The position numbers were made by a program, and so were the translations under genes. 48,435 nt of DNA, from the NCBI GenBank assembly GCA_019240755.1, contig JAFAXS010000002.1:1-48435 (forward strand), read 5' to 3'. This document shows positions 604 to 48,435 of the stretch, one piece after another; within the stretch, counting starts at the first letter, position 1; every line of letters begins with the position of its first letter. The notes under the pieces are model-generated. The model did no database searches and was not told where the DNA came from. It saw only the letters and a program-made list of their open reading frames with translations. The DNA is from Vulcanimicrobiota bacterium. Its GTDB lineage: Bacteria; Vulcanimicrobiota; Vulcanimicrobiia; Vulcanimicrobiales; Vulcanimicrobiaceae.

Positions 604-1373
604 AGCCCGGCCTCCGCCATCGTCGTCACCTCGTCGGAATCGAACTCCGCCGGCCCCGATTCGTAAGCTTGGCGGTCGTAGGCGCTTTCGCTCTCCGTGC
701 GCCCCTCAACAATCGCGTCGGCGATCTTACTAACCATGAGTTTTACGGCGCGTATCGCATCGTCGTTTCCGGGAATCGGATAGTCGATCTCCTCGGGATC
801 GCAGTTGGTGTCGATCACGGCGATGATCGGAATCTTGAGCTTCTTGGCCTCGAGCACCGCGATGCGCTCTTTCTTTGGATCGACGATGAAGAGTGCGTCC
901 GGCAGGCGATGCATGTCCTTGATGCCGCCGAGGAATCGCTCGAGCCGGTTCATCTCCTCTTGAAGCGCCGCAACCTCTTTCTTGGGTAGACGCTCGAAGT
1001 CGCCCTGAAGCTTCATGTTTTCCAGCTCGCGCAACCGGGCGATTCGCTTCTGGATCGTCGCGAAGTTCGTGAGCGTCCCGCCGAGCCAGCGCTGATTCAC
1101 GTAGAAAGTTCCCGCCCGTTCCGCCTCCTCGCGAATCACGTCTTGCGCCTGTTTCTTGGTCCCTACGAAGAGAATGATGCGCCCTTCGCGCGCGAGACGC
1201 TTGACGACGTCGTAAGTATCGCGCAGGCGCTGGACCGTCAGGGCGAGGTCGATGATGTAAATTCCGTTGCGCTCTTGGAAGATGAAGGGCTTCATCTTTG
1301 GGTTCCAGCGGCGCGTTTGGTGGCCGAAATGGACGCCGGCCTCCAAGAGCTCGCGCATCGTGACGACGCTCAT
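600..1373 (-). CDS. rpsB: 30S ribosomal protein S2
   Basis: Small-subunit ribosomal protein S2, 257 residues. The family N-terminus is clear: the motif [15 protein letters not shown] lies at residues 13-27, followed by the IYIIDL and FVGTKKQA segments. The C-terminal tail after about residue 225 is acidic and family-variable. The ATG start is about 100 bases downstream of a strong promoter (1484-1512), leaving room for a leader of the kind that mediates S2 autoregulation in other bacteria; I see no specific fold there. It is the first gene of the rpsB-tsf operon, the usual bacterial order. Confidence 0.97.
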
Positions 1374-1483
1374 AAAAGACTACCTTTCTGGCTCCCTGGC
1401 GCACCCCATCCTTGAGAATCGCGCCGCGTCGAGGAACCATTGCCACCCTGCCTCCCTGCGGGGTGAAGTGAGACAACCGCGCG

Positions 1484-1512
1484 ATTATAGCATGCCCGGG
1501 ACGGCGCTCCAA
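1484..1512 (-). promoter_or_regulatory. Sigma-70-type promoter for rpsB-tsf
   Basis: Reading the minus strand, a TTGGAG -35 box (1507-1512) is followed by a 17-base spacer and a perfect TATAAT -10 box (1484-1489). Transcription would start near 1477 and leave a leader of about 100 bases before rpsB. The match and spacing are close to the housekeeping sigma consensus. Confidence 0.75.
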
Positions 1513-1585
1513 CCACTTATGAGAAGCCCCTGCAAGCAAGCGTGCGTCCCTAAGAGTTTTCCATGCACCGCCGAACCGGCGGGCA

Positions 1586-2620
1586 ATGCGCTGGCTCGTT
1601 ACCGGCGGCTTGGGTTTCATCGGCTCGCACTTCGTCCGGCTCGTTTTGCAAGAACGGCCCGACGTCGAAGTTGTCAACCTGGACGCCGTGACGTACGCGG
1701 GCAATCCCGCCAACCTCGCGTCCGTCGCGGACCACCCGCGCTATCGCTTCGTGCGCGGGAACGTCTGCGATGCCGCCGCCGTCGCGAAAGCCGCGGCGGG
1801 CGGCGTTGAGGCGATCGTCAACTTCGCCGCCGAGACGCACGTCGATCGCTCCATCGTAAATCCCCAAGCTTTTCTGCAGACCGACGCGCTGGGCACGCTC
1901 GTATTGTTGGAGACTGCCAGAGCCTCGTGTGCCGGACCCTTCCTTCAAGTCTCCACCGACGAGGTGTACGGCGACGTGCCATCCGGCGAATCGCTCGAGC
2001 ACGACCCCCTTCGCCCACGCAGCCCGTACGCCGCCAGCAAGGCGGCCGGCGACCTCCTGGGGCTCGCCTTCCACGCGACGTACGATGCCCCCGTGCTGAT
2101 CACGCGGGGCTGCAACACCTATGGACCAAATCAGTTTCCCGAGAAGATCGTCCCGCTGTTCGTAACCAATCTGCTCGACGATCTTCCGGTACCGCTCTAC
2201 GGCGACGGCCAACAGGTGCGCGATTGGCTCCACGTGGAGGATCACGCGCGCGCGGTCCTGACCGTACTCGAGTGCGGCCAGCCGGGAAACGTCTATAACA
2301 TCGGCGCAGGCGCCCCGCGCACCAACCACGACCTGACCCGGCTCCTCGTCGAACGCTGCGGCCGCTCCGCCGCGACGCACATCGCACGAGTGGCGGACCG
2401 CCCCGGTCACGACCGGCGCTACGCCGTCAACTGCGCTAAACTTCGCGCGCTCGGATGGCAACCGCGCGTGCCGTTCGACGAAGGCATCGCGCGAACGATC
2501 GACTGGTATCGTGCCAACGAATCGTGGTGGCGCCCGCCCAAAGAACGCGTAGCGCAGCGAACTCGCGAGGCGTTAATTGGGGTCCCGCGCGGCGATAATC
2601 CGCGCGGGGGCGCGCAGTGA
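1586..2620 (+). CDS. rfbB: dTDP-glucose 4,6-dehydratase
   Basis: Converts dTDP-glucose to dTDP-4-keto-6-deoxyglucose, the second step toward dTDP-rhamnose and related deoxysugars of the cell envelope. The protein is an extended short-chain dehydrogenase/reductase of 344 residues. It has the NAD-binding TGGLGFIG at 6-13, the active-site segment STDEVYG at 123-129, and the catalytic Tyr148 and Lys152 in YAASK. Length matches the family. The ATG start sits just before the first beta strand; its ribosome binding site is weak. The partner nucleotidyltransferase follows 76 bases downstream, but the later rhamnose genes (rfbC, rfbD) are not in this window. Confidence 0.93.
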   Translation: MRWLVTGGLGFIGSHFVRLVLQERPDVEVVNLDAVTYAGNPANLASVADHPRYRFVRGNVCDAAAVAKAAAGGVEAIVNFAAETHVDRSIVNPQAFLQTDALGTLVLLETARASCAGPFLQVSTDEVYGDVPSGESLEHDPLRPRSPYAASKAAGDLLGLAFHATYDAPVLITRGCNTYGPNQFPEKIVPLFVTNLLDDLPVPLYGDGQQVRDWLHVEDHARAVLTVLECGQPGNVYNIGAGAPRTNHDLTRLLVERCGRSAATHIARVADRPGHDRRYAVNCAKLRALGWQPRVPFDEGIARTIDWYRANESWWRPPKERVAQRTREALIGVPRGDNPRGGAQ

Positions 2621-36734: not shown

Positions 36735-38198
36735 GTGAGGCTTCCTGGGGCCATGCTTGCCGCGGTCGTGACGGCGGCCACCTCGGTTCAGTTTCCGGTG
36801 TCCACGTCGAGTGAATCGGCGCAAGCCGCCGTCGACCGCGGACTCTTCCTATATTACGCCTACGACGGCTTCGCGGCGTATGACGCCTTTCAAGTGGCGG
36901 CGCGATACGATCCGCGGCTCGCCATGGCGTACTGGGGAATGGCGCTCTCGAGCGGCCCTGACCTCAATACGCCGATGACTGCCGCGCAGTTCGCTCGCGG
37001 CGCTGCCTCGATTTCGAAGGCCGAAGCGCTGCTCGCCGGCGCCACGCCGCGCGAGCGACAGTTCGTCGCGATCATGGGCGAGCGTTATAAAGGAAGCTTT
37101 GCGCGATGGAGCGCTGACGACGCCGCGTATCGCGAGGCGATGCTGCGCTTCGCGCGCGCATCCGGCGACGAAGCGGCGGAGCTTTTGGCTGCCGAAGCCT
37201 CACTGGAAGCCGGTGGTCTGAGCTGGAAGGGCGGACAGCCTGCGAGACCGCCTTCCCGCGACGCGCTCGCTCTGGTAAGCGACGTCCTTCAACGCGACCC
37301 GTCCAACCCGATGGCGAACCACCTCTGCATCCATCTCTACGACGTGGCCCCCGATCGGACGCCCGCGCTGGCGTGCGCGCAGCATCTCGATGCCGCATCC
37401 TTTGCGTCCGAAGCGGAACACCTCGCGCACATGCCGGCTCACTACTGGATTGAAACCGGCGACTATGCACGGGCGGAGGCTTCGAGCCAGCGGGCCATCG
37501 CATTGCTGAATGACTTGCCCGCTTCAGAGTCGGGCGCCGAATATGAAGCGCACTATCGAAAGCACGACATTGCCGTTGGTTACTCCGCCACCATGATGCT
37601 CGGCAGCTATGCCGCGGCTCGCCACTGGGCCGATCGCATGGCCGGAGCGTTCGATACGAGCTTTTACGCACTCACCGCGCTGCGTTTCGGGCGCTATTCG
37701 GAAGCGTATGGCGAAGCCGATTCGGGCTTTGAAGCACCGAGCGTTAAAGGCTTGGCTGCGCTGCAGCTGGGACGGCTCAGCGAAGCGGCGCTCATCGCAG
37801 GAAAAATTTCTACCGCGAAGAGCGGCGCGCCGGGAAGCTATCTCGCCGACCTGTTCTTGGCACGGCTTGCCGAAGCCAAGGGCGACGTGAGCGCGGCGCG
37901 CGGCTGGATCGCCCGGGCCGAGACAACGCAGCGTGCCGAGTTCAGCGCCGAAGTCATTCCGTTGATTCCCGCGGGGGAAGCGCTCGGAGCGCTCGAGCTG
38001 CGTCTCGGCGATGCGCCCCGCGCAATCGACGCGTTCACCCAGACGCTGCAATTGTATCCGAACGATCCGCGCGCGCTCTTCGGCTTGGCTGAAGCTTACC
38101 TAACTATAAAGAGCCCGCGCGAAGCCGCCGCCGTTCGCGCGCGATTCGAGGGGGAGTGGAAGGGCGCAGACACCAATGCGCAAGACGCCCTTCCTTGA
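36735..38198 (+). CDS. TPR-repeat protein with signal-like N-terminus
   Basis: A 487-residue protein starting at a GTG with MRLPGAMLAAVVTAATSVQF, which looks like a short signal peptide. Tetratricopeptide-type helix pairs run through most of it, for example FQVAARYDPRLAMAYWGMALS, then MANHLCIHLYD and, near the end, QLYPNDPRALFGLAEAYLTIK. TPR proteins are scaffolds for protein interaction. No fused enzyme domain is visible. It is divergent from the tRNA cluster and stands alone. Confidence 0.7.
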   Translation: MRLPGAMLAAVVTAATSVQFPVSTSSESAQAAVDRGLFLYYAYDGFAAYDAFQVAARYDPRLAMAYWGMALSSGPDLNTPMTAAQFARGAASISKAEALLAGATPRERQFVAIMGERYKGSFARWSADDAAYREAMLRFARASGDEAAELLAAEASLEAGGLSWKGGQPARPPSRDALALVSDVLQRDPSNPMANHLCIHLYDVAPDRTPALACAQHLDAASFASEAEHLAHMPAHYWIETGDYARAEASSQRAIALLNDLPASESGAEYEAHYRKHDIAVGYSATMMLGSYAAARHWADRMAGAFDTSFYALTALRFGRYSEAYGEADSGFEAPSVKGLAALQLGRLSEAALIAGKISTAKSGAPGSYLADLFLARLAEAKGDVSAARGWIARAETTQRAEFSAEVIPLIPAGEALGALELRLGDAPRAIDAFTQTLQLYPNDPRALFGLAEAYLTIKSPREAAAVRARFEGEWKGADTNAQDALP

Positions 38199-38207
38199 GA
38201 CCTTCCG

Positions 38208-38402
38208 TCACGCCGCTTGGTCGCGTCGCAAGCTGCGCGCGACCGCTGCGAGCGTATCGCTCAGCGCCTGTGCCGCGTTTGCGACGACGGCGCGCGCCGT
38301 GATTTGCGGCAGGATCGCGACATCTTTACGGTGCCGGCTATAGCTCGCGACTACTTCGTCACGGCGAGCGCGGACTTCGTTTTTGACCCAATAGTCCATC
38401 AT
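38208..38402 (-). CDS. Small helical protein of unknown function
   Basis: A 64-residue protein beginning MMDYWVKNEVRARRDEVVAS, rich in Arg and Ala and probably helical. AAAGG lies just upstream of the two adjacent ATG codons. It begins 29 bases downstream of the terminator that follows the 29-residue peptide gene. Reading through that terminator would co-express the two, but the terminator looks efficient. It converges with the TPR gene. I do not recognise a family. Confidence 0.55.
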   Translation of the reverse strand: MMDYWVKNEVRARRDEVVASYSRHRKDVAILPQITARAVVANAAQALSDTLAAVARSLRRDQAA

Positions 38403-38430: not shown

Positions 38431-38465
38431 AAAATGAAAAGGCCCCCGACGTTCGCGGAGGCCTT
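38431..38465 (-). terminator. Rho-independent terminator after the small peptide gene
   Basis: On the minus strand, AAGGCCTCCG and CGGGGGCCTT form a ten-pair stem (one G-U) around a seven-base loop, followed by TTTTCATTTT. It lies 24 bases after the stop codon of the 29-residue peptide. Confidence 0.85.
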
Positions 38466-38488
38466 CGAAAGGAAACTAGAAGCGGCGG

Positions 38489-38578
38489 TTACGCCGTAAT
38501 CCCCTCCGAAGGCTGAACAAACGTCGACCCGCAGCCCATGTTGGGTGCAGGGAAGCACAGCGTAATGTTATCGTTCAT
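38489..38578 (-). CDS. 29-residue peptide of unknown function, possible RiPP precursor
   Basis: A short gene bounded by its own promoter, ribosome binding site and terminator. The peptide begins MNDNITLC, holds NMGCGSTF in the middle and ends GITA; its only cysteines are at positions 8 and 16. GGAGG lies 6 bases upstream of the ATG. The first codons (ATGAACGATAA) are the same as those of the HiPIP gene at 48184, whose upstream region also matches. The peptide has no signal sequence and is too short to be a standard protein. Options are a ribosomally made, modified peptide, a regulatory leader or a signalling peptide. No modifying enzyme gene is adjacent. Confidence 0.6.
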   Translation of the reverse strand: MNDNITLCFPAPNMGCGSTFVQPSEGITA

Positions 38579-38618
38579 TCGTGCCTCCTTTGCGGACGGA
38601 ATCGAGTAATATTGCAGC

Positions 38619-38647
38619 ACCTTAACACGACACGCATGGTTTGTCAA
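38619..38647 (-). promoter_or_regulatory. Strong promoter for the small peptide gene
   Basis: On the minus strand, a perfect TTGACA -35 box (38642-38647) is followed by a 17-base spacer and TAAGGT at 38619-38624. The start of transcription would lie about 35 bases before the ATG. It is one of the best promoters in the window. Confidence 0.75.
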
Positions 38648-38662
38648 ACGCGCTGCGAAGAC
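38634..38662 (-). promoter_or_regulatory. Conserved upstream element, copy 1 (peptide gene)
   Basis: A 29-base block overlapping the -35 box that matches 48340-48369 upstream of the HiPIP gene, with four substitutions and one inserted base. Both copies contain ACAAACCATGC on the minus strand. It could be a regulator site or a remnant of a duplicated promoter. Confidence 0.6.
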
Positions 38663-38670
38663 ATGGAGTC

Positions 38671-38815
38671 GTGCGTTTAGGCGCGTTCATCGCTCGGTGC
38701 CGGTATCGGCGTCGCGATCGGAGCGGCGTCACATCACGTCGTAGAAGGGCTTGCCCTGGGCGTGGCGTTCGGCGTTGCGATCGGCGCGCCCGTCGACCGC
38801 GGAAGGCGTCGTTAA
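38671..38815 (+). pseudogene. Frameshifted glycine-zipper membrane protein remnant
   Basis: From a GTG at 38671 the frame reads MRLGAFIA. After one extra C at 38695 the next frame continues as GAGIGVAIGAASHHVV and then LALGVAFGVAIGAPVD, ending at TAA (38813-38815). The G-xxx-G-rich helices are those of small glycine-zipper membrane proteins. The upstream GGAG is close to the GTG. A sequencing error at the C would restore the gene. Confidence 0.45.
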
Positions 38816-38816
38816 C

Positions 38817-39158
38817 TTAGTACGGCAGTTGTCGAGGGCTTAACGTGAAGGCGCCGGATTCACAGATCTCAACGACCTGCGGCTCGCTCAATCGGCGAAA
38901 CGTCTTGTTACCGTACTGAAAATCGTCGCCGGCCTGCGTTCTATCGTACCGTGCTTGCGCACCGGGATTCAACTGCGGGCGGGGCTGCAGCGTCTGCTTC
39001 TTGAAGTTCACCCCGTACGCCGCTTCGTCAGTGAACAGCACGACGTCGCCCCGACCGTTGGCGTATCCGCCGTACACGGGCTCGGCCACGTCGGCGCCCG
39101 TCGAGTTACGGGGAGGCTTGATGGATAAGACGGCAACGGGTGGATTAGCGGTCGGCAT
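38817..39158 (-). CDS. Small protein of unknown function
   Basis: A 113-residue protein from an ATG at 39158 with a possible AAAGG just upstream. It is polar with a proline-rich start (MPTANPPVAVLSIKPPRN), then YANGRGDVVLFTDEAAYGVNF and a basic/tyrosine-rich centre. No signal peptide or domain is recognised. A longer upstream reading would cross into the next gene and is not supported. Its stop is two bases from that of the frameshifted glycine-zipper remnant on the other strand. Confidence 0.5.
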   Translation of the reverse strand: MPTANPPVAVLSIKPPRNSTGADVAEPVYGGYANGRGDVVLFTDEAAYGVNFKKQTLQPRPQLNPGAQARYDRTQAGDDFQYGNKTFRRLSEPQVVEICESGAFTLSPRQLPY

Positions 39159-39201
39159 GACCTTTATACAACGCGTCAGCGCGCCGGAAAGTTGCGATTT
39201 T

Positions 39202-39744
39202 TCAAACGCGGCTGTAGATTTCGGTCCGCTCGCCTGCCCACGTGCGACCATTGTCCACCGATTCGCTCTGAACCGTTTGGAAAGATCGCGCCGAGATATG
39301 CGAAAACACGAGGCGAATCAGGGCTGGGCGTCCGTTCAGGGAATCGTGGCCTATGAAAATGCCGACGCTGTCGTGAAAGTGCCCGATGAGCGGCCGCGAT
39401 ACCGTGCCGTCGCCGGCGTCGGCCCAGTAAATGTTCCACTCGCGGCTCGAGGGCCGGTAGATCGTCAACAGCGACCCTCGCACGTGCCGCGCTGGCCTAG
39501 GCACGATGAGCTGGGCGATCGTGGCGCCGTCCCACAGTTTCCGGACGACGTGACCGTTCCCGCTCGGACTCATTTTCCACGTGCCGACTTCGAAGTCGAA
39601 ATCGTGTCGCCCGTCCCGCGCGTCCGGCATACCGATCAGCGCGCCTACGGGAGTGTTAGCCGCTGTGCCGGCCGCGAGCGTGACAGCACAAAGCAAAGGA
39701 ATGATGACGGCTCGTTGAAGTCCGAAGTACACGCTCCAAAACAT
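39202..39744 (-). CDS. Secreted protein, DUF1579-like
   Basis: A 180-residue protein with an N-terminal signal segment (FGLQRAVIIPLLCAVTLAAG). The mature part opens HDFDFEVGTWKMS and continues as WNIYWADAGDGTVSRPLIGHFHD. This resembles the DUF1579-like lipocalin-type family in which an H-x-W/F-x-G-W pattern starts the fold, though the match is partial. It is divergent from the unknown 189-to-207-residue protein at 39783. Function is unknown. Confidence 0.6.
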   Translation of the reverse strand: MFWSVYFGLQRAVIIPLLCAVTLAAGTAANTPVGALIGMPDARDGRHDFDFEVGTWKMSPSGNGHVVRKLWDGATIAQLIVPRPARHVRGSLLTIYRPSSREWNIYWADAGDGTVSRPLIGHFHDSVGIFIGHDSLNGRPALIRLVFSHISARSFQTVQSESVDNGRTWAGERTEIYSRV

Positions 39745-39782
39745 TTCCGCTCCATCGTATTATTCTAGCCACACGAAATCCT

Positions 39783-40406
39783 TTGAAAGAGGTCGCTGCG
39801 CAGGATCACGGAATCAAGTGCGAATGCACCGCAACCGCAATGCCTAACGGCGGCGCCATTATCGGCGTATCGGATCACGGCGGTTGGGCGATACTGGTAA
39901 CGGTAGCGCGCGATGGAACGCTGCTCGATCGCCGCCGTGTAGAACTCGTGGACGACGATCTTCCCGCGATTCCGCATCACCACGAAGCACAGATGCTTCC
40001 GGCGGGCGAGGGAGTGGCGTTAGTCGAGCGCGTGCGCGCCTCGGCGGAAGAGCATGCGGCGCGCGCGCTGGCAGAAGTCGCGACGACTGTGCCGCGCATC
40101 AACGGCGTCGCCCTTCGTAACTGCCCGGAACTCCCGCCGACAATCGCCGAACGAATTAAGGACTACCGCGCACGCAACGTCGCCGACTGGGTGATGTACC
40201 GTCAAGCCCTCGCAAAAGCTGCCGCCGCGCGCGGCTGGGCCGTTTACTGGTACGATTCGAAGAAAGTAGCCGATGATGCGACCCGGTCCTTGCGCATCGC
40301 AAACTTCGACGCGCATTTCCTCGATATGCGCAAAGCCGTCGGGCCGCCGTGGAACAACGACCACAAACTCGCCATGGCCGCAGCGATCTCTACTCAAAAG
40401 GAGTGA
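39783..40406 (+). CDS. Protein of unknown function
   Basis: A cytoplasmic protein of 207 residues from a TTG at 39783, or 188 from an ATG at 39840 that begins MPNGGAIIGVSDHGG; neither has a clear ribosome binding site. The N-terminal region GGAIIGVSDHGGWAILVTVARDGTLLDRRRVEL could be an RNase H-like first strand pair, and WVMYRQALAKAAAARGWAVYWYDSKKV lies later. I do not recognise a family. A lipoprotein gene follows after four bases, with its ribosome binding site inside this gene's 3' end. Confidence 0.55.
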   Translation: MKEVAAQDHGIKCECTATAMPNGGAIIGVSDHGGWAILVTVARDGTLLDRRRVELVDDDLPAIPHHHEAQMLPAGEGVALVERVRASAEEHAARALAEVATTVPRINGVALRNCPELPPTIAERIKDYRARNVADWVMYRQALAKAAAARGWAVYWYDSKKVADDATRSLRIANFDAHFLDMRKAVGPPWNNDHKLAMAAAISTQKE

Positions 40407-40410
40407 TGTC

Positions 40411-41418
40411 GTGAACGCCGCTGGTCTAGCGAAGTGCCCCACCGCCCTCGTTGCGCTGGCGTTGTGCTCGGCCTGCGCCGGCTCGGCGGTCGCGCCGTCA
40501 ACCGCGACGCTAAGTGCCACCTACGTCGGCCGCACGCTCTCCGTCAACGGCAGATTGGTAACGGCTGCGCGCCTGGGCCCGCCGAACCGTTACGCGGTGA
40601 TCGCTCCTCACGGGCATGGCAGGCGGCCGCACGAGTACATCATCAACGACTACGGTACGTACGCCGGTATCTTCAACTATCCGAAGAGCACGAATCAAAA
40701 AGGCATCATCAATAACGTCGGCGGGCAGGGATGCACGAACGTCCTCTCCGGCTATGGAAAGAAGACGTTCTGGATCGTCGCGGGCACCGCTCAGATCACG
40801 AACTACAAGGTCCCGCAGACGCCGATAAAGACGCTCTCCGTTCCGTCCGGCGCCAACCCATCGAGCTGCGCCATGAATACCGCGGGCGACCTCGCCGTGG
40901 GGATCTTGTATGGGTCGGATACCGGCGACATCTTCATCTTCAAGCACGCGAGCGGGAAGGGCACGGCGATTCCAACGCCCTTGGCCCGAGAATACTTCGA
41001 CGGCTACGACGCCAAGGGGAATCTCTTCTTGGACGGTTTCACCAACGCATCGGCCTTCCAGCTCGACGAGATCCCGAGCGGCACCAAGACGGTCCAAACG
41101 ATCGTCACGAGCAACACGGTGGGCTTCCCCGGCTCGGTGCAGTGGGACGGCACGTACCTCACGGTCACCGATCAGGCGAACAACTCGATGTATCAATACA
41201 CCGTCACGGGAACGCACGCGAAGCTGAAGGGCACGATAAGGCTGATGGGCGCCGGGGACTGCGCGCAGACCTGGATCGTTATGGGCCTCGTCTATTGCGC
41301 GGACGCGACCAACCAAGACGGCGAGGTCTTCAAGTACCCCGGCGGGGGTTCGGCGCTTGCGATCCTCGGCAGCGGTTTCCCGTTACCGCTGGGAACGGTG
41401 GCAGCCAACAAATACTGA
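40411..41418 (+). CDS. Lipoprotein, beta-propeller-like
   Basis: A 335-residue protein from a GTG at 40411 with AAAAGGAG 7 bases upstream. The N-terminus is a lipoprotein signal with a probable lipidated Cys22 in LCSAC. The mature part has repeated blocks with aromatic-Gly turns and NPSSCAMNTAGDLAVGILYGSDTGDIFIFKH, then EYFDGYDAKGNLFLDGF, which look like propeller blades (NHL/SMP-30-like). No enzyme residues stand out. It precedes the GloVer lipoprotein gene by 30 bases on the same strand. Confidence 0.65.
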   Translation: MNAAGLAKCPTALVALALCSACAGSAVAPSTATLSATYVGRTLSVNGRLVTAARLGPPNRYAVIAPHGHGRRPHEYIINDYGTYAGIFNYPKSTNQKGIINNVGGQGCTNVLSGYGKKTFWIVAGTAQITNYKVPQTPIKTLSVPSGANPSSCAMNTAGDLAVGILYGSDTGDIFIFKHASGKGTAIPTPLAREYFDGYDAKGNLFLDGFTNASAFQLDEIPSGTKTVQTIVTSNTVGFPGSVQWDGTYLTVTDQANNSMYQYTVTGTHAKLKGTIRLMGAGDCAQTWIVMGLVYCADATNQDGEVFKYPGGGSALAILGSGFPLPLGTVAANKY

Positions 41419-41448
41419 CGCTCTGATCGTCGGAGGGAGGATCGTTGC

Positions 41449-42669
41449 ATGAAAGAGTCTCGTTGTAACCATGTTTGTCGTGGCTTCAGTATTTGCGTAG
41501 TCGCATTGCTCGCAGCGTGCAGCGGCGGAGCACCGCCGATCGCTCGACCGGGCGGGATGCAACCAACAGCGGGGATAGCGGTACCTGCTGCGACCTTCCA
41601 GGTGCTGTACCACTTCCATGGGCATCGCCGCGGCGACGGAGCAAGGCCGGAAGCCACCCTGATCGACCTGGACGGTAAGCTGTATGGCACGACGCCCCGG
41701 GGTGGTGCAAAACATGGCGGAACGGTGTTCAGCGTAACGACGACCGGCACGGAGAAGGTGCTGTACAACTTCGGGGCCGCCTCCGGTGACGGCATGTTCC
41801 CGGTTTCCCGACTGATCAAGTTGAATGGCGCACTGTACGGCACGACCGTCGGCGGTGGTGCGAACGGCGTCGGAACCGTCTTCCGCGTTACGACGGCCGG
41901 CAGGGAACGGGTGCTGTATAGTTTCGCTGGCGGCTCCGACGGAGCCAACCCGGAAGCGGGCCTCCTCAACGTGAACGGCACGATGTACGGCACAACCTCG
42001 CGGGGCGGTACGAATGGCAGCGGAACCGTTTTTAGCGTTGCGACGACCGGCACGGAGCAGGTGCTGCACAGCTTCGGAAGTGGCTCCGACGGCGCGGAAC
42101 CACTGGCGAGCCTAATCCACGTGAACGGCGTTCTGTACGGTACGACCTTTATGGGCGGCGCGAACGGCAGCGGAACGGTCTTTGCTATTACGACGAGCGG
42201 CACGGAGAAAGTGCTGCACAGTTTTGGTGGCGCCGACGGGATTGAACCCGATTCGCGGTTGCTCAACGTAAACGGCACGATGTACAGCACGACCAGCAGC
42301 GGCGGCTCGAGCGCTTGGGGAACCGTTTTCTCCATCACGACGACCGGCACGGAGAAGGTCTTGTATAACTTCCGTGACGATTATGACGCAGCGAGCCCCG
42401 GCGGTGGCTTAATCAACGTAAAGCGGACGCTGTACGGCACGACGTATCAAGGCGGCAGTTCGGGATGCTTCTTTGGTTGCGGAACGATCTTCAGCATTAC
42501 GACGGCCGGTAAGGAGCACGTGCTGTATCGATTCTCGGGCGGTTCCGACGGAGCTGGCCCACTCGGCGGCCTGATCGACGTAAACGGCACGATGTACGGC
42601 ACGGCCAGCTTGGACGGCACGGGATGCTTGCACAAGGGTTGCGGGACGATTTTCGCGTTGATTCCGTAG
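41449..42669 (+). CDS. Lipoprotein with seven GloVer repeats
   Basis: A 406-residue surface lipoprotein with lipobox Cys24 in LLAAC. Seven copies of the GloVer pattern follow, each starting GTVF or GTIF, then a T-T-x-G-x-E-x-V-L-Y-x-F segment, and ending in an xLYGTT or xMYGTT motif before the next block. The last copy stops at GTIFALIP. The first part (FQVLYHFHG) would supply the missing strands, as in the ring closure of a seven-blade propeller. GGAGG lies upstream of the ATG. Repeats are also alike at the DNA level, so they arose by tandem duplication. Confidence 0.85.
   Translation: MKESRCNHVCRGFSICVVALLAACSGGAPPIARPGGMQPTAGIAVPAATFQVLYHFHGHRRGDGARPEATLIDLDGKLYGTTPRGGAKHGGTVFSVTTTGTEKVLYNFGAASGDGMFPVSRLIKLNGALYGTTVGGGANGVGTVFRVTTAGRERVLYSFAGGSDGANPEAGLLNVNGTMYGTTSRGGTNGSGTVFSVATTGTEQVLHSFGSGSDGAEPLASLIHVNGVLYGTTFMGGANGSGTVFAITTSGTEKVLHSFGGADGIEPDSRLLNVNGTMYSTTSSGGSSAWGTVFSITTTGTEKVLYNFRDDYDAASPGGGLINVKRTLYGTTYQGGSSGCFFGCGTIFSITTAGKEHVLYRFSGGSDGAGPLGGLIDVNGTMYGTASLDGTGCLHKGCGTIFALIP
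41719..42669 (+). repeat. Tandem DNA repeats within the GloVer gene
   Basis: Units start near 41719, 41871, 42022, 42173, 42319, 42480 and 42646, so the period is about 150 bases with some longer steps. Each opens with GGAACCGT- or GGAACGGT-like sequence and carries CGACGACCGGCACGGAG or a variant. Confidence 0.75.
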
Positions 42670-42680
42670 GTAGGGGAGCG

Positions 42681-43508
42681 TTATTGCGTCGTCGTCAACG
42701 CCCGCCTGGACGGAAGCCGCACGTGGTCGGCAAGGTGCACCCAACGCAGTAGCCGCACGAGCCACCATGTCGGATCGATTTCGAACCAACGAAAGCCGTG
42801 GCGCGCGGAATAGGGAAAGGCGTGGTGATTGTTGTGCCAGCCCTCGCCCCATGAGATGAGCGCGACCCACCAACAGTTCGTCGATAAGTCGCGCGTGCGA
42901 AACGTTCGGTAGCCGATCGAATGCGCCGCACTATTCACGAGCCACGTCGCGTGATAGCTGACGGCAAGCCGAACGAACATGCCCCAAATCACCCAGCTCC
43001 ACCCTCCCAACGCGAATAAAACGATTGCGAGCGAAAGATGGAGCGGCCACTGCGCGTAGCGTAGTCCGCGATAGAACCGCTGCGCGAAGAGGTCCGGGGC
43101 GAAACGCCGGAGCTCGCTCTCGGTCGGAAACGCTTCGTTGGGCCGGCATAACCAGGCGACGTGCGCCCAACGGAAGCCTCGGTGACGATCGTGCGGATCG
43201 TCGGTCGTATCGGCGTGAGCGTGATGCTTGCGATGCGTAGCCACCCAGCGAATGGGATCGGCTTGCATCGCCAGCGTCCCGAGAATTGCTAGACCGTATT
43301 CCAGCGGTTTGCGCAACCGCAGTCCGCGATGCGTCAGCGTTCGATGAAAGCACAGCGCGATACCGAGCCCGCCGGTGAGGTAGAGCAACACGCCTGCCGC
43401 CGCGACGGCGCTCCAGTGAAAGATTGCAGGAATGAACGCGAGCAAGGCCAGAGCGTGAATCGCGCCCAGGCCGAGCCCGTTGAGCGTCCGGCGAACTCGG
43501 TGGCTCAC
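42681..43508 (-). CDS. Acyl-CoA/fatty acid desaturase
   Basis: An integral membrane di-iron enzyme of 275 residues that inserts a double bond into acyl chains. The three histidine boxes are HRTLTHR (55-61), HRKHHAHAD (from 92) and HNNHHAFP (near 228), matching the delta-9-type desaturase family. Four membrane helices flank them. The GTG start is adjacent to the stop of the zinc-ribbon gene with no gap. It would alter membrane lipid fluidity, for example in the cold. Confidence 0.92.
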   Translation of the reverse strand: MSHRVRRTLNGLGLGAIHALALLAFIPAIFHWSAVAAAGVLLYLTGGLGIALCFHRTLTHRGLRLRKPLEYGLAILGTLAMQADPIRWVATHRKHHAHADTTDDPHDRHRGFRWAHVAWLCRPNEAFPTESELRRFAPDLFAQRFYRGLRYAQWPLHLSLAIVLFALGGWSWVIWGMFVRLAVSYHATWLVNSAAHSIGYRTFRTRDLSTNCWWVALISWGEGWHNNHHAFPYSARHGFRWFEIDPTWWLVRLLRWVHLADHVRLPSRRALTTTQ

Positions 43509-43814
43509 CTACCGATACGAAGAACGTGACGCGAAGCAGTCGCGGCAGTAGACCGGTCTCCCGGACTTCGGCTCAAACGGAACCTCCGCGACTCCGCCGC
43601 ATTGACCGCAGGTTGCTTGGAACATCTGCCGGCGCGAGGAATCGAAGCCGCCGCCTCGCCGTTCTCCGCCGGAGCTTCTGCGCGCAGCGCGGCAATCGTT
43701 GCAGCGGCTGGGCTTGTTCGTGAAGCCTTTGCTGGCAAAGAACTCCTGCTGACCGGAGGTGAACGTAAAGTTTGTCCCGCAGTCGACGCAGGTAAGCGTT
43801 TCGTCAGTATACAT
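43509..43814 (-). CDS. Zinc-ribbon protein
   Basis: A 101-residue protein with two zinc-binding sites of four cysteines: Cys9, 12, 38, 41 and Cys69, 72, 90, 93, all as CxxC pairs. A Ser/Arg/Gly-rich stretch links the halves. It resembles the zinc-ribbon/CxxC domain proteins common in Chloroflexota-like genomes, of unknown role. The gene sits directly upstream of the desaturase gene on the same strand. Its leader contains a hairpin at 43887-43915. Confidence 0.8.
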   Translation of the reverse strand: MYTDETLTCVDCGTNFTFTSGQQEFFASKGFTNKPSRCNDCRAARRSSGGERRGGGFDSSRRQMFQATCGQCGGVAEVPFEPKSGRPVYCRDCFASRSSYR

Positions 43815-44105
43815 TTCTATGGGTGTCCTAACTCTTAAGGGTGTGTGCTGGGCCTGTCGGCCGTTGTTGAGCTCGGCGAAAAATCGAAAACCGTACTCCA
43901 GCGGAGTCGAGTTTTGATTTGAAGTGGGGGATGATAATAAAAACCGATCTTTCTGTGGCGCAACTTATCGACCATTCGAAAGATCGCGCTCGAACTCTGC
44001 GGGGGATTATACCATGAATCCCTCGCGTCCGCACCCCAGACCCGACTTAGGTCGAATCGGTTGCAAGCGGGCAGTCCGTCGACAGGGCCCGCGACGCGAC
44101 CTCGA
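43815..44105. other. Gene-free stretch with a leader hairpin
   Basis: No credible gene lies here. A hairpin at 43887-43915 (plus strand AAAAC...ACTCC-AGC-GGAGT...GTTTT, with a three-by-three internal loop) sits about 73 bases before the zinc-ribbon ATG on the minus strand. It could be a leader structure or a terminator of another transcript. Short open frames in this stretch look like noise. Confidence 0.4.
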
Positions 44106-44250
44106 GTCTACCACGGGCCGCGCGACGTGCGGCTGGAAAACGTCCGATCGGGGCCAGCCTGCGCGGCACGGTCGTGGGCGACGGCGCGGTCGGTTTGTGC
44201 GCGGTGCTTTCGGCCGCGAAAATCATCCGCGCCGAGCCATATCGAAGCGT
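44106..44250 (+). pseudogene. Collapsed zinc-dependent alcohol dehydrogenase remnant
   Basis: Starting at 44106 one frame reads VYHGPRDVRLENV, the typical N-terminal strand of zinc alcohol dehydrogenases. Starting at 44165 a second frame reads GTVVGDGAVGLCAVLSAAKII, the Rossmann nucleotide-binding motif of the same family. The two parts, normally over 100 residues apart, are joined with a frame change, which implies a large internal deletion. The catalytic zinc region is missing. Confidence 0.55.
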
Positions 44251-44289
44251 AACGAGACTTCCTAAAGAGACGATGAAAGGGAGCGTTGC

Positions 44290-44574
44290 ATGAGCCTGTT
44301 TACCGTTATCTACAAACCCGGCCCGCGCTGGATCGCCGGCCGGCGTTTCCACGAACAAGAAGGCGTCAGTGGTCATCGCGATTTCTTAGCCGAACGCCAT
44401 GCGGCAGGCGACCTGCTCGTGGGCGGCCCCTTTCTCGATGACGCCGGCGGCATCGCGATCTACGAAGCCTCAACGGACGAAGAACTGATCGCGTTATTGC
44501 AGCAAGACAAGACGATCACGGGACGCCTGATGACGTACGAATTACATCCGTGCGCGCTTCCGTTCATGAGATAA
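44290..44574 (+). CDS. YciI-like protein
   Basis: A 94-residue protein of the YciI/YCII fold. The central GHRDFLAERHAAGDLLVGGPF and late AIYEASTDEELIALLQ match the family, which includes small ferredoxin-like proteins with a putative His/Asp active site. GGGAG lies 6 bases upstream of the ATG. It follows the dehydrogenase remnant by 40 bases. The substrate is unknown. Confidence 0.82.
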   Translation: MSLFTVIYKPGPRWIAGRRFHEQEGVSGHRDFLAERHAAGDLLVGGPFLDDAGGIAIYEASTDEELIALLQQDKTITGRLMTYELHPCALPFMR

Positions 44575-44586
44575 GGAATTGGCAGC

Positions 44587-44664
44587 GTGCTACTCGCTTC
44601 GTGCGGCGGCAGTGCGCGCCGCGGACCTGCCTACCATGGAACCGTGTTTGCCTTAACCCCGTAG
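44587..44664 (+). pseudogene. Collapsed GloVer lipoprotein remnant
   Basis: This frame reads LLASCGGS, the lipobox region of the neighbouring lipoprotein genes, then directly YHGTVFALTP and a stop. The latter equals the C-terminus of the intact GloVer protein (GTIFALIP). Everything between is gone and no start codon remains. The lipobox part is nearly identical at the DNA level to that of the HAF gene at 44780. Confidence 0.6.
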
Positions 44665-44779
44665 CGCCCAGCCGCAGTAAATAAAGACGCGCCGCCTTTA
44701 AAGTGCTACACTAAGGGCCTGGCAGGCGGCCGCCGGCTCCTCAGCCGCGTCCACTTGGGCGCTGCAGTGGAGGGCAGAA

Positions 44780-46363
44780 ATGGAGCGACTTCCCATGAAA
44801 GCCTATCGTTTCGCCCATGGTTTCGCAGTGGTCTTATCCACGGCGCTACTCGCTTCGTGCGGCGGTAGTCAGTCGACCGCGCCGCAACTTCCAGCGGCAC
44901 CATCGCAATCAAGCAGCGTCAGGGTGGGGGGCGGCGATCACATCCGGTATCACCTCGTCGACTTAGGCACGTTTGGCGGGCCGAATAGCACGATATGCTC
45001 GTTCACGCCCGTATGCCTACCCTCACAAGTTTTAAATGATCGCGGAACGTTAGTTGGGGCGGCGGACACCTCGATCCCCGATCCCTTTCCCGCCTTCTGC
45101 TTCGACGGGTTGATAAGGCTGCCGGACTGCTACACTACGCGCGCGTTTGCAACGCGGAATCGAGAGCTAGTACGCCTGAGCGCCCTAAGCAAAGGGAGCG
45201 CCGTCGCGGTGTCGGTCAGCAACAACGATCTGATCGCGGGAGTCGCCCAAAACGGCAAGACGGATCCAATAGTTCCCGGCTTTCCAGAAGTCCGCGCCGC
45301 GCTTTGGGACGGCGACAAGGTCGCCGACCTTGGAACCTTTGGCGGCGGTGAGACTAACGCCAATGCCGTCAATGACCGCGGTCAAGTTGCCGGCGCGACG
45401 ACTAACACGATTCCCGACCCTTACTCATTCATTTACAACTTTTTGGGCACTTCGAATGGAACGCAGACGCGAGGATATCTTTGGCAGAACGGCTCGAAGC
45501 GGGACCTAGGCACGCTGGGCGGCCCCGACGCGTTCGCCGTTGACGTAAACGAGCGCGGACAGGTAGCAGGATGGTCGTACGTCAACTCGACTCCGAACCA
45601 AGGCACTGGCCTTCCAACGTATCATCCGTTTTTGTGGCAGAAGGGCAAAATGCGCGACCTCGGGACACTGGGTGGTACACAGGTGTACAACATCGAGGGC
45701 CTCAACGATCGCGGCGAAGTACTCGGTCTGATGACGCTGGCGGGCGAACAACGAGCTCATCCATTCTTGTGGAATGGGCGCCGGCTTGTTGACCTCGGGA
45801 CGTTCGGAGGTCCCGGCGGCGATGGAGCGTGGATCAATGACCGGGGGGAAGCCGTTGGCTGGGGCGGCACTACTCAGAATTGTCCGAACCTCGAGGGCGG
45901 CGGTCAACACTCGTTCTTATGGAGGAACGGAGTCAAGAGGGATCTCGGCTCGGTTCCCGGCACCGACAACGGCGACGCTAGCTGGATCAATTCCAAGAGT
46001 CAGATTGTCGGCAGCGATTTCAGCTGCGACGCCACGGTCTTCGACGCGTACTTATGGGAGAAGGTGTCTATCGTCGACTTAAACACGCTGATTCCCCCCG
46101 GCTCCCAGCTCCATTTGTTCATAGCCCTGGCCATCAACGATCGAGGGGAAATCGCGGGCCTTGGATCGCTGCCGAACGGGGACATTCACGCTGTCCTCCT
46201 GATTCCGCGCGCCGGCGAGACGCGCGCCGCTGCAGCCGAGACAAGTCGGTCTATTGCAGGATCGCACACACTAACAAATCGGCAACTCACGACCGCTGAA
46301 CTTATCGCCATCAAAGGGATTTTGGCCGGTCGGCATCGCCGATTTATGGGATTACGGCACTAA
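44780..46363 (+). CDS. Lipoprotein with HAF repeats
   Basis: A 527-residue protein with lipobox Cys27 in TALLASC and six to seven HAF-type repeats. Each has the LGTLGG or LGTFGG turn followed by xxxxAxxINDRGxxxG, as in LGTLGGPDAFAVDVNERGQV. HAF proteins are extracellular beta-repeat proteins of unclear function. GGAGGG lies five bases upstream of the ATG. The first 27 residues are close to those of the adjacent hydrolase gene at 46404, so their signal sequences share an origin. Confidence 0.82.
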   Translation: MERLPMKAYRFAHGFAVVLSTALLASCGGSQSTAPQLPAAPSQSSSVRVGGGDHIRYHLVDLGTFGGPNSTICSFTPVCLPSQVLNDRGTLVGAADTSIPDPFPAFCFDGLIRLPDCYTTRAFATRNRELVRLSALSKGSAVAVSVSNNDLIAGVAQNGKTDPIVPGFPEVRAALWDGDKVADLGTFGGGETNANAVNDRGQVAGATTNTIPDPYSFIYNFLGTSNGTQTRGYLWQNGSKRDLGTLGGPDAFAVDVNERGQVAGWSYVNSTPNQGTGLPTYHPFLWQKGKMRDLGTLGGTQVYNIEGLNDRGEVLGLMTLAGEQRAHPFLWNGRRLVDLGTFGGPGGDGAWINDRGEAVGWGGTTQNCPNLEGGGQHSFLWRNGVKRDLGSVPGTDNGDASWINSKSQIVGSDFSCDATVFDAYLWEKVSIVDLNTLIPPGSQLHLFIALAINDRGEIAGLGSLPNGDIHAVLLIPRAGETRAAAAETSRSIAGSHTLTNRQLTTAELIAIKGILAGRHRRFMGLRH

Positions 46364-46403
46364 GCCCGTCGCGGTGATCGACCGCTACGGTCGAGCCGCA
46401 GAA

Positions 46404-47909
46404 ATGGAGCGTTTACCGATGCAAGCTTCTCGTTTTCTTTACGGTCTCGCCGTGGTTCTATCCACCGCGCTACTCGCATCGTGCGGGGCCAATCAAATAA
46501 CGCCTTCATTGCTGCAACCTCATGGGGCGACGGCGGACTCCAACGTCCTGCCCGTAAACGGTCGCCCGGCACTTTCGATCAAAAAATATACCGGCAATTT
46601 TTCCGATGGATCCAGCTACTTAATCGAGGTTCCGGGAAAATGGAACCGGACGTTGCTCCTATGGAGCCATGCAGCGCGCTTTCCCGGCACCATTCCCAAT
46701 CCCCCGGACGACATGAACCTCGATGTTGGCGACCCCGCCCGTACGTATCTTCTGTCGCATGGCTTCGCGCTCGCAGGCTCGTCGTATTGCGCAGGGGGCT
46801 GGGTCATTGCATGCGCGATGCGCGACCAAATTGCAACGCTCGACAAATTTGCTTCTCTCGTTAGCAAGCCGTCGCGCACTATCGCCTGGGGCGATTCTCT
46901 GGGAGGCCAGATCACCGCAGGGCTGATACAGAAGTATTCCCACCGCTTTTCCGGTGCGCTCACCGACGGTGGGCTGCTGGGAGGGTCCGTCGGTACTTTC
47001 AACCAGTGGCTCGATCAAGCGTTTGCGATCAACGTATTGGTCGCATCTGGACGATTGGAGCTGGTTCATATCACCAATGCGGGCAACGACGTAACGATCG
47101 CGAGCAACGCGCTTTCCCACGCGCAGATGACCCCTCAAGGCAGAGCGCGGATAGACTTAATCGCGGCGCTGGCGGATGCCCCGGGTTGGAATAACCTTAG
47201 CGCGCCCAATCCGCCGGAACCGGGGCCGCACGATTATAACCAACGCGAGCAGTACAACTATTCCTCATTGCAAAATGATGCCGCTGCATTTTTCTGGATT
47301 ATACGCCAGAATTTCGAGCAGCTGGCCGGAGGTAATCCTTCGTGGAAAACGGGTGTGAATTACCGCGAACAGCTGCAGCGCTCAGTCGATCTCGCCGAAG
47401 TAAGAACGCTCTATCGGCGCGCCGGCCTCGATCTCGACGCAGATCTCGATCGCCTGAACGCGGCACCGCGAATCGCAGCCGATCGAAGCGCGTTGACGTA
47501 TGCAGAGAAAAACATAGTGTACAATGGAGAAATCGGCGTTCCGATCCTAACGATTCACACCACAGGCGACGACGTCGTAAACGTTCAACACGAACAAGCA
47601 TATGCGGCGGCCGCCCGTGAAGAGGACAATAACAACTTGTTGCACGATCGGTTTGTGCAGCGGTCCGGGCACCTCAATCTCACGCAGGCTGAGCTGCTCG
47701 CCGGTCTACAGGCGCTCATTCAGCGCGTCGGCTCGGGTAGGTGGGGAGATACAGAGCCGGCAGACTTAAACGCGGCCGCGTCGCGGCTCGGACCAGATTT
47801 CAGCGTGCTGATCCCACCGTTTCCACCAGGCCCGACGGCCACGCCGGCGTTCGTGGAGTACGCACCGGCGCCGTTTCTTCGCAAGTTTAATCGCGGCGAC
47901 GACAAGTAA
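46404..47909 (+). CDS. Alpha/beta hydrolase lipoprotein
   Basis: A 501-residue lipoprotein with lipobox Cys27 and a nucleophile elbow WGDSLGGQ placing Ser165. A later Asp in TTGDDVVNVQH and a His in RSGHLNLT complete a plausible triad. Strand patterns fit a large secreted esterase or tannase-like fold; the substrate is unknown. The ATG at 46404 is preferred by comparison with the HAF gene; an in-frame GTG 10 codons earlier and an ATG 5 codons later are alternatives. It converges with the HiPIP gene. Confidence 0.7.
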   Translation: MERLPMQASRFLYGLAVVLSTALLASCGANQITPSLLQPHGATADSNVLPVNGRPALSIKKYTGNFSDGSSYLIEVPGKWNRTLLLWSHAARFPGTIPNPPDDMNLDVGDPARTYLLSHGFALAGSSYCAGGWVIACAMRDQIATLDKFASLVSKPSRTIAWGDSLGGQITAGLIQKYSHRFSGALTDGGLLGGSVGTFNQWLDQAFAINVLVASGRLELVHITNAGNDVTIASNALSHAQMTPQGRARIDLIAALADAPGWNNLSAPNPPEPGPHDYNQREQYNYSSLQNDAAAFFWIIRQNFEQLAGGNPSWKTGVNYREQLQRSVDLAEVRTLYRRAGLDLDADLDRLNAAPRIAADRSALTYAEKNIVYNGEIGVPILTIHTTGDDVVNVQHEQAYAAAAREEDNNNLLHDRFVQRSGHLNLTQAELLAGLQALIQRVGSGRWGDTEPADLNAAASRLGPDFSVLIPPFPPGPTATPAFVEYAPAPFLRKFNRGDDK

Positions 47910-47914
47910 CCGCG

Positions 47915-48184
47915 CTACGGCAGCTTCGTTGCAAAGTACTTGCAATGGCCTCGGGGCGAGATCGTGCCCTTCACGATCTGACACGAACTCGGCGCAACAA
48001 ATTGCGTGCACCAGGAGCATTGGTTTCCGAGCACGGGATGCGACACGTACTGCGCCGTCGCCTGGTCGATGGTTGGAGCTGCTTCTGCCCGCGCGCCCAG
48101 CTTCGCAAACGCGCCGATCGCGGCCGCGACGGCCGTCACCTTTCCGATTATGTCCCGGCGAGAAATTCTCATATTATCGTTCAT
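47915..48184 (-). CDS. High-potential iron-sulfur protein (HiPIP), Tat-exported
   Basis: An 89-residue protein with a twin-arginine signal (SRRDIIG at residues 8-14, then a hydrophobic stretch). The mature part has four cysteines at 56, 59, 68 and 81, giving C-x2-C-x8-C-x12-C around QFVAPSSCQIVKGTISPRGHC. This fits the HiPIP 4Fe-4S family, periplasmic electron carriers. The second spacing is shorter than in the best-known members. AGGAG lies upstream of the ATG at 48184. The upstream region and first codons match those of the small peptide gene at 38578. Confidence 0.82.
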   Translation of the reverse strand: MNDNMRISRRDIIGKVTAVAAAIGAFAKLGARAEAAPTIDQATAQYVSHPVLGNQCSWCTQFVAPSSCQIVKGTISPRGHCKYFATKLP

Positions 48185-48339
48185 GCTTCTTCTCCTAGCT
48201 GAACACCTCGACTTTCGGGGACGGGAGCGCAGACCTCTTCGTCGCTCTTCCCGCCGCGCCCCGCGGCGCCGCACTAGCCTCCCGATCGAGATTTCGCTGT
48301 GAGGTTACGAGGACATACCATCCACCTCACTGGCTGAGT

Positions 48340-48369
48340 GCATGGTTTGTTAGAGGCGCCGCGAAAGAC
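48340..48369 (-). promoter_or_regulatory. Conserved upstream element, copy 2 (HiPIP gene)
   Basis: A 30-base block near-identical to 38634-38662, with four substitutions and one inserted base. It lies about 155 bases before the HiPIP ATG. In the peptide-gene copy the matching position is the -35 box; here that box reads CTAACA. Confidence 0.55.
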
Positions 48370-48378
48370 CAAACGCGC

Positions 48379-48435
48379 GGGCGGTTAGCTCAGTGGGAGA
48401 GCACTTCCTTGACACGGAAGGGGTAACATGTTCAA
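48379..48435 (+). tRNA. tRNA-Val (GAC), cut by the window end
   Basis: The acceptor start GGGCGGT, D-arm GCTC...GAGC and anticodon arm CTTCC-TTGACAC-GGAAG are clear, giving anticodon GAC. The gene runs off the right edge in the T-arm (ACATG then TTCAA), so its end cannot be placed. Confidence 0.9.

Follow-up and report, generated by a model that had tools for sequence, protein, structure and literature searches.

A predicted ribosome-dependent transcription attenuator in front of a small arginine-rich protein gene in Candidatus Eremiobacterota

Does a 29-codon open reading frame (ORF) furnished with a promoter, a Shine-Dalgarno (SD) sequence and a terminator encode a peptide that functions by itself, or does its translation control the gene that follows? 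The question is raised by the minus strand of a 48,435-nucleotide stretch of DNA (the whole of which is here called the window) from a Vulcanimicrobiota bacterium. A sequence-only reading of the locus had taken the ORF for a free-standing gene, whose product could be a precursor of a modified peptide, a signal or a small regulator. Here we report a comparative and folding analysis of the unit and its relatives, which points instead to a ribosome-dependent transcription attenuator of the leader-ORF type, predicted to control a 63-codon gene; we give this reading a probability of about 0.85.

The features of the unit are collected in Table 1. The promoter, the GGAGG, the 29-codon ORF with cysteines at positions 8 and 16, and the strong hairpin terminator with its U-tract are all present as described earlier, except that five bases, not six, separate GGAGG (38588-38584) from the ATG at 38578. 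Exact TTGACA was found in 22 of the 23 related loci with a recognizable promoter, together with a -10 element resembling TGnTAnaGT; a generic promoter scan omits the site of the window, since its TAAGGT agrees with the -10 consensus at just three of six positions. The ORF is not free-standing: the 63-codon gene begins 38 bases past the terminator stem, and the terminator, in its 5' arm and loop, is complementary to the 3' half of the ORF. Because the terminator is followed by so short a spacer, a separate promoter for the 63-codon gene outside the terminator is implausible, and from this layout the gene would have to be reached by readthrough of the terminator. In the Rfam search of the window, only tRNAs reached the gathering score, and the leader region gave weak sub-threshold, terminator-like matches.

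Table 1. Positions of the predicted regulatory elements and genes of the unit within the window
Feature	Position	Strand	Description	Basis
Promoter	38619..38647	minus	TTGACA 38647-38642, 17-base spacer, TAAGGT 38624-38619	sequence; conserved place in relatives
SD sequence GGAGG of the leader ORF	38584..38588	minus	inside AAAGGAGGCACG	block conserved in the alignment of relatives
Leader ORF	38489..38578	minus	29 codons plus TAA, MNDNITLCFPAPNMGCGSTFVQPSEGITA	ORF call; 25 homologous ORFs
Hairpin P1 within the leader ORF	38528..38552	minus	CCCTGCACCC/TGGGCTGCGGG, possible pause hairpin	folding, covariation
Predicted antiterminator, 5' strand	38503..38524	minus	codons of the 3' half of the leader ORF, ACGTTTGTT...CCTTCGGAGG	folding, pairing, covariation
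Predicted antiterminator, 3' strand	38449..38475	minus	overlaps terminator 5' arm and loop, TTTCCTTTCGAAGGCCTCCGCGAACGT	pairing, covariation
Intrinsic terminator (putative attenuator)	38438..38466	minus	11-pair stem GAAGGCCTCCG...CGGGGGCCTTT, then U-rich tract	
Putative regulated gene	38208..38399	minus	63 aa, MDYWVKNEVRARRDEVV...	family of ~65 aa, arginine-rich

The same order of promoter, SD sequence, leader ORF of 26-46 codons, terminator and ~65-codon gene was identified in 26 loci from 12 genera (25 from the main set and locus L118) of one family within Candidatus Eremiobacterota, and in every one of them the gene directly after the leader unit is unannotated and arginine-rich. The distance from the leader stop codon to this gene is 82-104 bases, with L070 (149 bases) as the sole exception. 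The earlier judgement that such a unit is rarely an accident is borne out by this recurrence and by the leader RNA of the window, which folds better than all of 200 shuffles (z = -4.3). When 60 related genomes were searched with the DNA, the unit turned up within the genus and in further genera of its family, and it was through the terminator that the true homologues surfaced; with the leader peptide as the sole query against 60 related genomes, most matches were due to chance. The downstream protein was found in 27 of 99 family genomes by protein search and in 28 of the 149 genomes of the phylum by a profile; this presence of the ~65-codon gene in only 28 of the 99 family genomes, several of the remaining ones being incomplete, weighs somewhat against the attenuator reading. 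One weak match outside the family (genome G042, E = 2.8e-4) lies inside a 610-codon frame and was not counted. The first, wider alignment held no stretch conserved enough for scanning species genomes, and a profile of the close relatives identified eight loci among 84,980 species genomes, in Eremiobacterota only. An RNA model gave one strong match per genome, each in front of the ~65-codon gene, and the matches with E > 0.001 proved on inspection to be mostly other terminators. One strong match per genome, together with the lack of any Rfam family above threshold, argues for a single lineage-specific attenuator, not a regulon.

Several observations concern the surroundings of the unit. A tRNA-Val(GAC) gene adjoins it at each of the 22 loci tested, which represent 18 distinct places; only in L077 is the distance more than a few hundred bases. 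In the window, tRNA-Val(GAC) lies at 48379 on the plus strand, ~9.7 kb from the unit, so that an insertion of ~9.6 kb, within the stretch 38660-48435, seems to separate the two. A convergent gene for a TPR protein (36735-38198, plus strand) keeps its place after the ~65-codon gene in the relatives and is followed by a cluster of tRNA-Val(CAC), Asp and Phe genes. Beside the unit of L093, an ORF starting MARRTKGEGTLRHRVDGRWEMRIPNG (1225-2442, minus strand), by eye similar to a tyrosine recombinase, adjoins the tRNA-Val gene. Upstream of the RNA-model match in L119 and L123 (genus g36), a different leader ORF, MSNLHIMCHMCPVPAPDRRRLASRISK, is followed by a terminator and a gene for a substrate-binding protein that weakly resembles the SsuA family of aliphatic sulfonate transporters; this second leader is a candidate cysteine- or sulfur-sensing attenuator.

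The complementarity between leader ORF and terminator makes the antiterminator and the terminator mutually exclusive, and the pairing between them is conserved by compensating change. In the 14 near relatives, cognate strands reach a pairing energy of -32.1 kcal/mol and swapped strands one of -26.1 kcal/mol; in 10 more distant loci, the corresponding energies are -29.3 and -24.8 kcal/mol. None of 20,000 permutations in either set matched the cognate strands. In the alignment, both sides have changed in 15 of 33 pairs, against 6.7 ± 1.8 in shuffles (0 of 500), and 87% of the cells are paired, falling to 31-45% when the strands are slid; for antiterminator helices 2 and 3, 89% of the cells are paired and both sides have changed in seven pairs. 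The covarying strands can be followed by eye, as GGTTGAC/GTCAACC in L061, GGTTGC or GGTCGC/GCGACC in L055 and L054, CCTTCGTCC/GGACGAAGG in L056, and CCTTCGATC/GATCGGAGG in L072. The terminator stem is retained in 99.3% of the cells (14 relatives). An intrinsic terminator precedes the gene and is faced by a covarying antiterminator that excludes it. Inside codons 10-17 of the leader ORF sits the hairpin P1, a helix of seven pairs (86.7% paired, three pairs changed on both sides among the 14 relatives), which might serve as a pause hairpin. A pairing between the leader SD sequence and the terminator arm was also considered and was dropped, since the arm has changed to GCCCCC in L069 and L072 and the SD sequence does not follow. 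In L067 (and L098), an insert resembling a dispersed repeat, CTACGCACGCTGCGCTCAGGATGAC, lies between the antiterminator strand and the terminator and shifts the stop codon.

To relate these structures to translation, we masked the leader as far as the ribosome at each of its positions in turn and computed how probable the terminator stem was. In the window, this probability is 0.00 without a ribosome and through codon 13, ~0.6 over codons 15-17 and 0.96 once codon 21 is reached, and with the ribosome at the last codon it exceeds 0.7 in all 25 loci. Averaged over the 14 near relatives without a ribosome, it is 0.08; the average rises to 0.89 if the codons of the ORF are shuffled and to 0.72 if ORFs are exchanged between loci. 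Since shuffled and swapped ORFs lose the modelled switch, the switch is written into the leader ORF. Ribosome position thus selects the structure in silico in the window and the near relatives. Switching is uneven in L064 and L066, and in five distant loci (L068, L071, L072, L074, and L079) the terminator is favoured at equilibrium wherever the ribosome stands, so that there the antiterminator would need to act kinetically, ahead of the synthesis of the 3' arm; when the RNA of these loci ends at the terminator loop, the ORF pairs with half to nearly all of the 5' arm.

According to the mechanism that we propose, RNA polymerase would start at the promoter and a ribosome would begin to translate the leader. 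A ribosome proceeding to the end of the leader ORF would cover the antiterminator codons, allowing the terminator to fold and to stop transcription before the gene. If the ribosome were missing, or stalled within approximately the first 13 codons, the antiterminator codons would pair with the 5' arm and loop of the terminator, and the antiterminator so formed would block the terminator and permit transcription of the 63-codon gene, presumably by readthrough in the cell. The modelled switch point lies near codons 14-20, the terminator being predicted to form once the ribosome is past about codon 20. The earlier suggestion of a small regulator would hold as to a regulatory role, exerted in cis on the following gene, for which the ORF is the leader, and not as to the peptide, which is itself unconstrained (see below).

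In trp- and his-type leaders, the choice between an antiterminator and an intrinsic terminator depends on where the ribosome stands along a short leader ORF, and the unit of the window would make its choice in the same way. A classical amino acid attenuator, whose leader would respond to how well a single kind of tRNA is charged, would account for this anatomy, and it agrees with the tRNA-Val(GAC) gene adjoining the unit in all loci tested and with the prevalence of Thr, Asn, Ile, and Ser among the dozen codons at the start of the ORF. However, codons 2-12 of the relatives contain neither a run of one codon nor a conserved residue, which argues against the sensing of a single amino acid: residues 2-12 vary freely, the codon enrichment of trp- and his-type leaders is not found, and the regulated gene is not recognizable as a biosynthetic or transport gene. 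Unlike the trp/his type, the unit of the window has no regulatory codon run and no amino acid biosynthesis gene, and its modelled RNA favours antitermination when no ribosome is present. We therefore regard a tRNA-specific leader as improbable. If the unit is an attenuator, a general sensor of translation status appears likelier than a sensor of one amino acid, although we would put it at about even odds, and the natural signal would be the stalling or shortage of ribosomes.

Somewhat less probable again is a switch set by a trans-acting factor, for example autoregulation by the arginine-rich protein binding its own leader RNA. The alternative structures would suit such a switch, and the product is small and arginine-rich like RNA-binding proteins, but a protein or ligand switch would have no need of an antiterminator strand placed inside a frame-conserved ORF with a strong SD sequence, nor of a modelled switch point that tracks ribosome position.

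There is little room for the bioactive peptide of the sequence-only reading, whether modified, a signal or a regulator in trans, with a terminator that just ends the transcript. Its good start signals and frame conservation are real. Among the 25 leader ORFs, 23 start with ATG and two with GTG, length is kept, and none has an in-frame stop, whereas the two alternative frames are interrupted by stops in 13 and 15 of the 25; in the alignment, the unstructured 5' part contains two indels, each three bases long. Because the SD block, the start codon and the frame are conserved, translation of this short leader between promoter and regulated gene appears to be selected. The peptide behaves otherwise: among the 14 near relatives, the leader ORF has a pN/pS of 1.06 (bootstrap 0.85-1.36) and its first nine codons, which lie outside the RNA pairing, one of 0.96, against 0.53 (0.41-0.66) for the ~65-codon gene (1.08 and 0.55 in a first estimate from 11 sequences), and these values, like those for the frame, are coarse, with 25-46 codons per ORF and the dependence between relatives not removed. 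The residues GxGS and PS do recur in the family, but they coincide with antiterminator strands (GGGTCG, CCTTCG). Of the cysteines, whose conservation had been proposed as a check along with that of the start and C-terminus, Cys16 is private to the genome of the window and Cys8 common to some relatives only. The peptide has no match in Pfam or NCBIfam, no core under purifying selection and no modifying enzyme among the eight neighbouring ORFs tested, and the ~65-codon gene always follows. The bioactive-peptide reading thus fails on the very point that it had named, a bias toward synonymous changes. As judged from these comparisons, the translation of the leader ORF is selected and its peptide sequence is not. 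Hardly more credible is a constitutive terminator that makes a small RNA of the leader transcript and leaves the ~65-codon gene to leaky readthrough alone: a strong terminator does stand between the two ORFs, but the covarying pairing of the ORF with the terminator arm would have no reason in a plain terminator.

The protein encoded by the putatively regulated gene belongs to a family of ~65 residues, rich in arginine (14 of 65 residues in L054, nine of 63 in the window), with an invariant Trp4 and several invariant Arg and Ala residues. No convincing relative was found in Pfam, NCBIfam, PHROGs or the solved structures of the PDB; single-member weak matches, such as Phage_tail_APC (0.00037, in two members), fall below the curated cut-off and were not believed, and DUF1127 of Pfam matched neither the protein of the window nor the other 22 family members at E values up to 1. 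The AlphaFold model of the relative L096 consists of two helices (mean pLDDT 82.6, pTM 0.38) and was not taken into a fold search because it would match anything helical. The copy in the window (38211-38399, minus strand) is two residues shorter and has an odd middle, KDVAILPQITARAVVA where the relatives have RLARLAASGRSTRVRIRIA, and may be diverging. From its composition and regulation, our guess is a role in RNA or ribosome protection, and the protein may help under translation stress.

The closest parallel is duf1127_1 of Sinorhizobium meliloti, in which translation of an upstream ORF leads to premature termination before a gene for a small arginine-rich protein and translation inhibitors relieve the attenuation (PMC12218461). 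Common to both is a short upstream ORF that attenuates, or in the window would attenuate, a small arginine-rich gene; however, an intrinsic terminator was not found in S. meliloti and Rho was proposed (PMC12218461), whereas the unit of the window has an intrinsic terminator and an antiterminator in the 3' half of its ORF, and its protein matches no Pfam family above the cut-off. The leader of vmlR in Bacillus subtilis, which reports stalled ribosomes through intrinsic termination and an antiterminator (PMC9226507), shares these elements with the proposed attenuator but differs in having an anti-antiterminator and an antibiotic resistance gene, in place of a small protein without an assigned family. 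In the toiL-topAI system of Escherichia coli, toiL senses many translation stresses (PMC12121999); it likewise uses an upstream ORF that reports stalled ribosomes, and differs in acting via a hidden ribosome-binding site and Rho.

These results describe, from sequence evidence alone, a probable leader-ORF attenuator in an uncultivated phylum, absent from Rfam and linked to an unannotated family of small proteins, and they illustrate that a well-signalled short ORF can stay conserved in frame yet encode no functional peptide. Most likely, the switch lets a soil bacterium turn on a small protein when ribosomes stall or run short. More tentatively, and at less than even odds, the lineage may possess its own intrinsic-terminator attenuator, tuned to ribosome availability and not to a single amino acid or drug, that drives an undescribed family of small arginine-rich proteins whose targets during translation stress would be ribosomes or RNA, and that originated independently of the DUF1127 system of S. 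meliloti. If the leader does sense translation status, it would parallel the DUF1127 leader of S. meliloti independently; small arginine-rich proteins would then seem to have come repeatedly under ribosome-sensing control, which would give a clue to the role of the protein.
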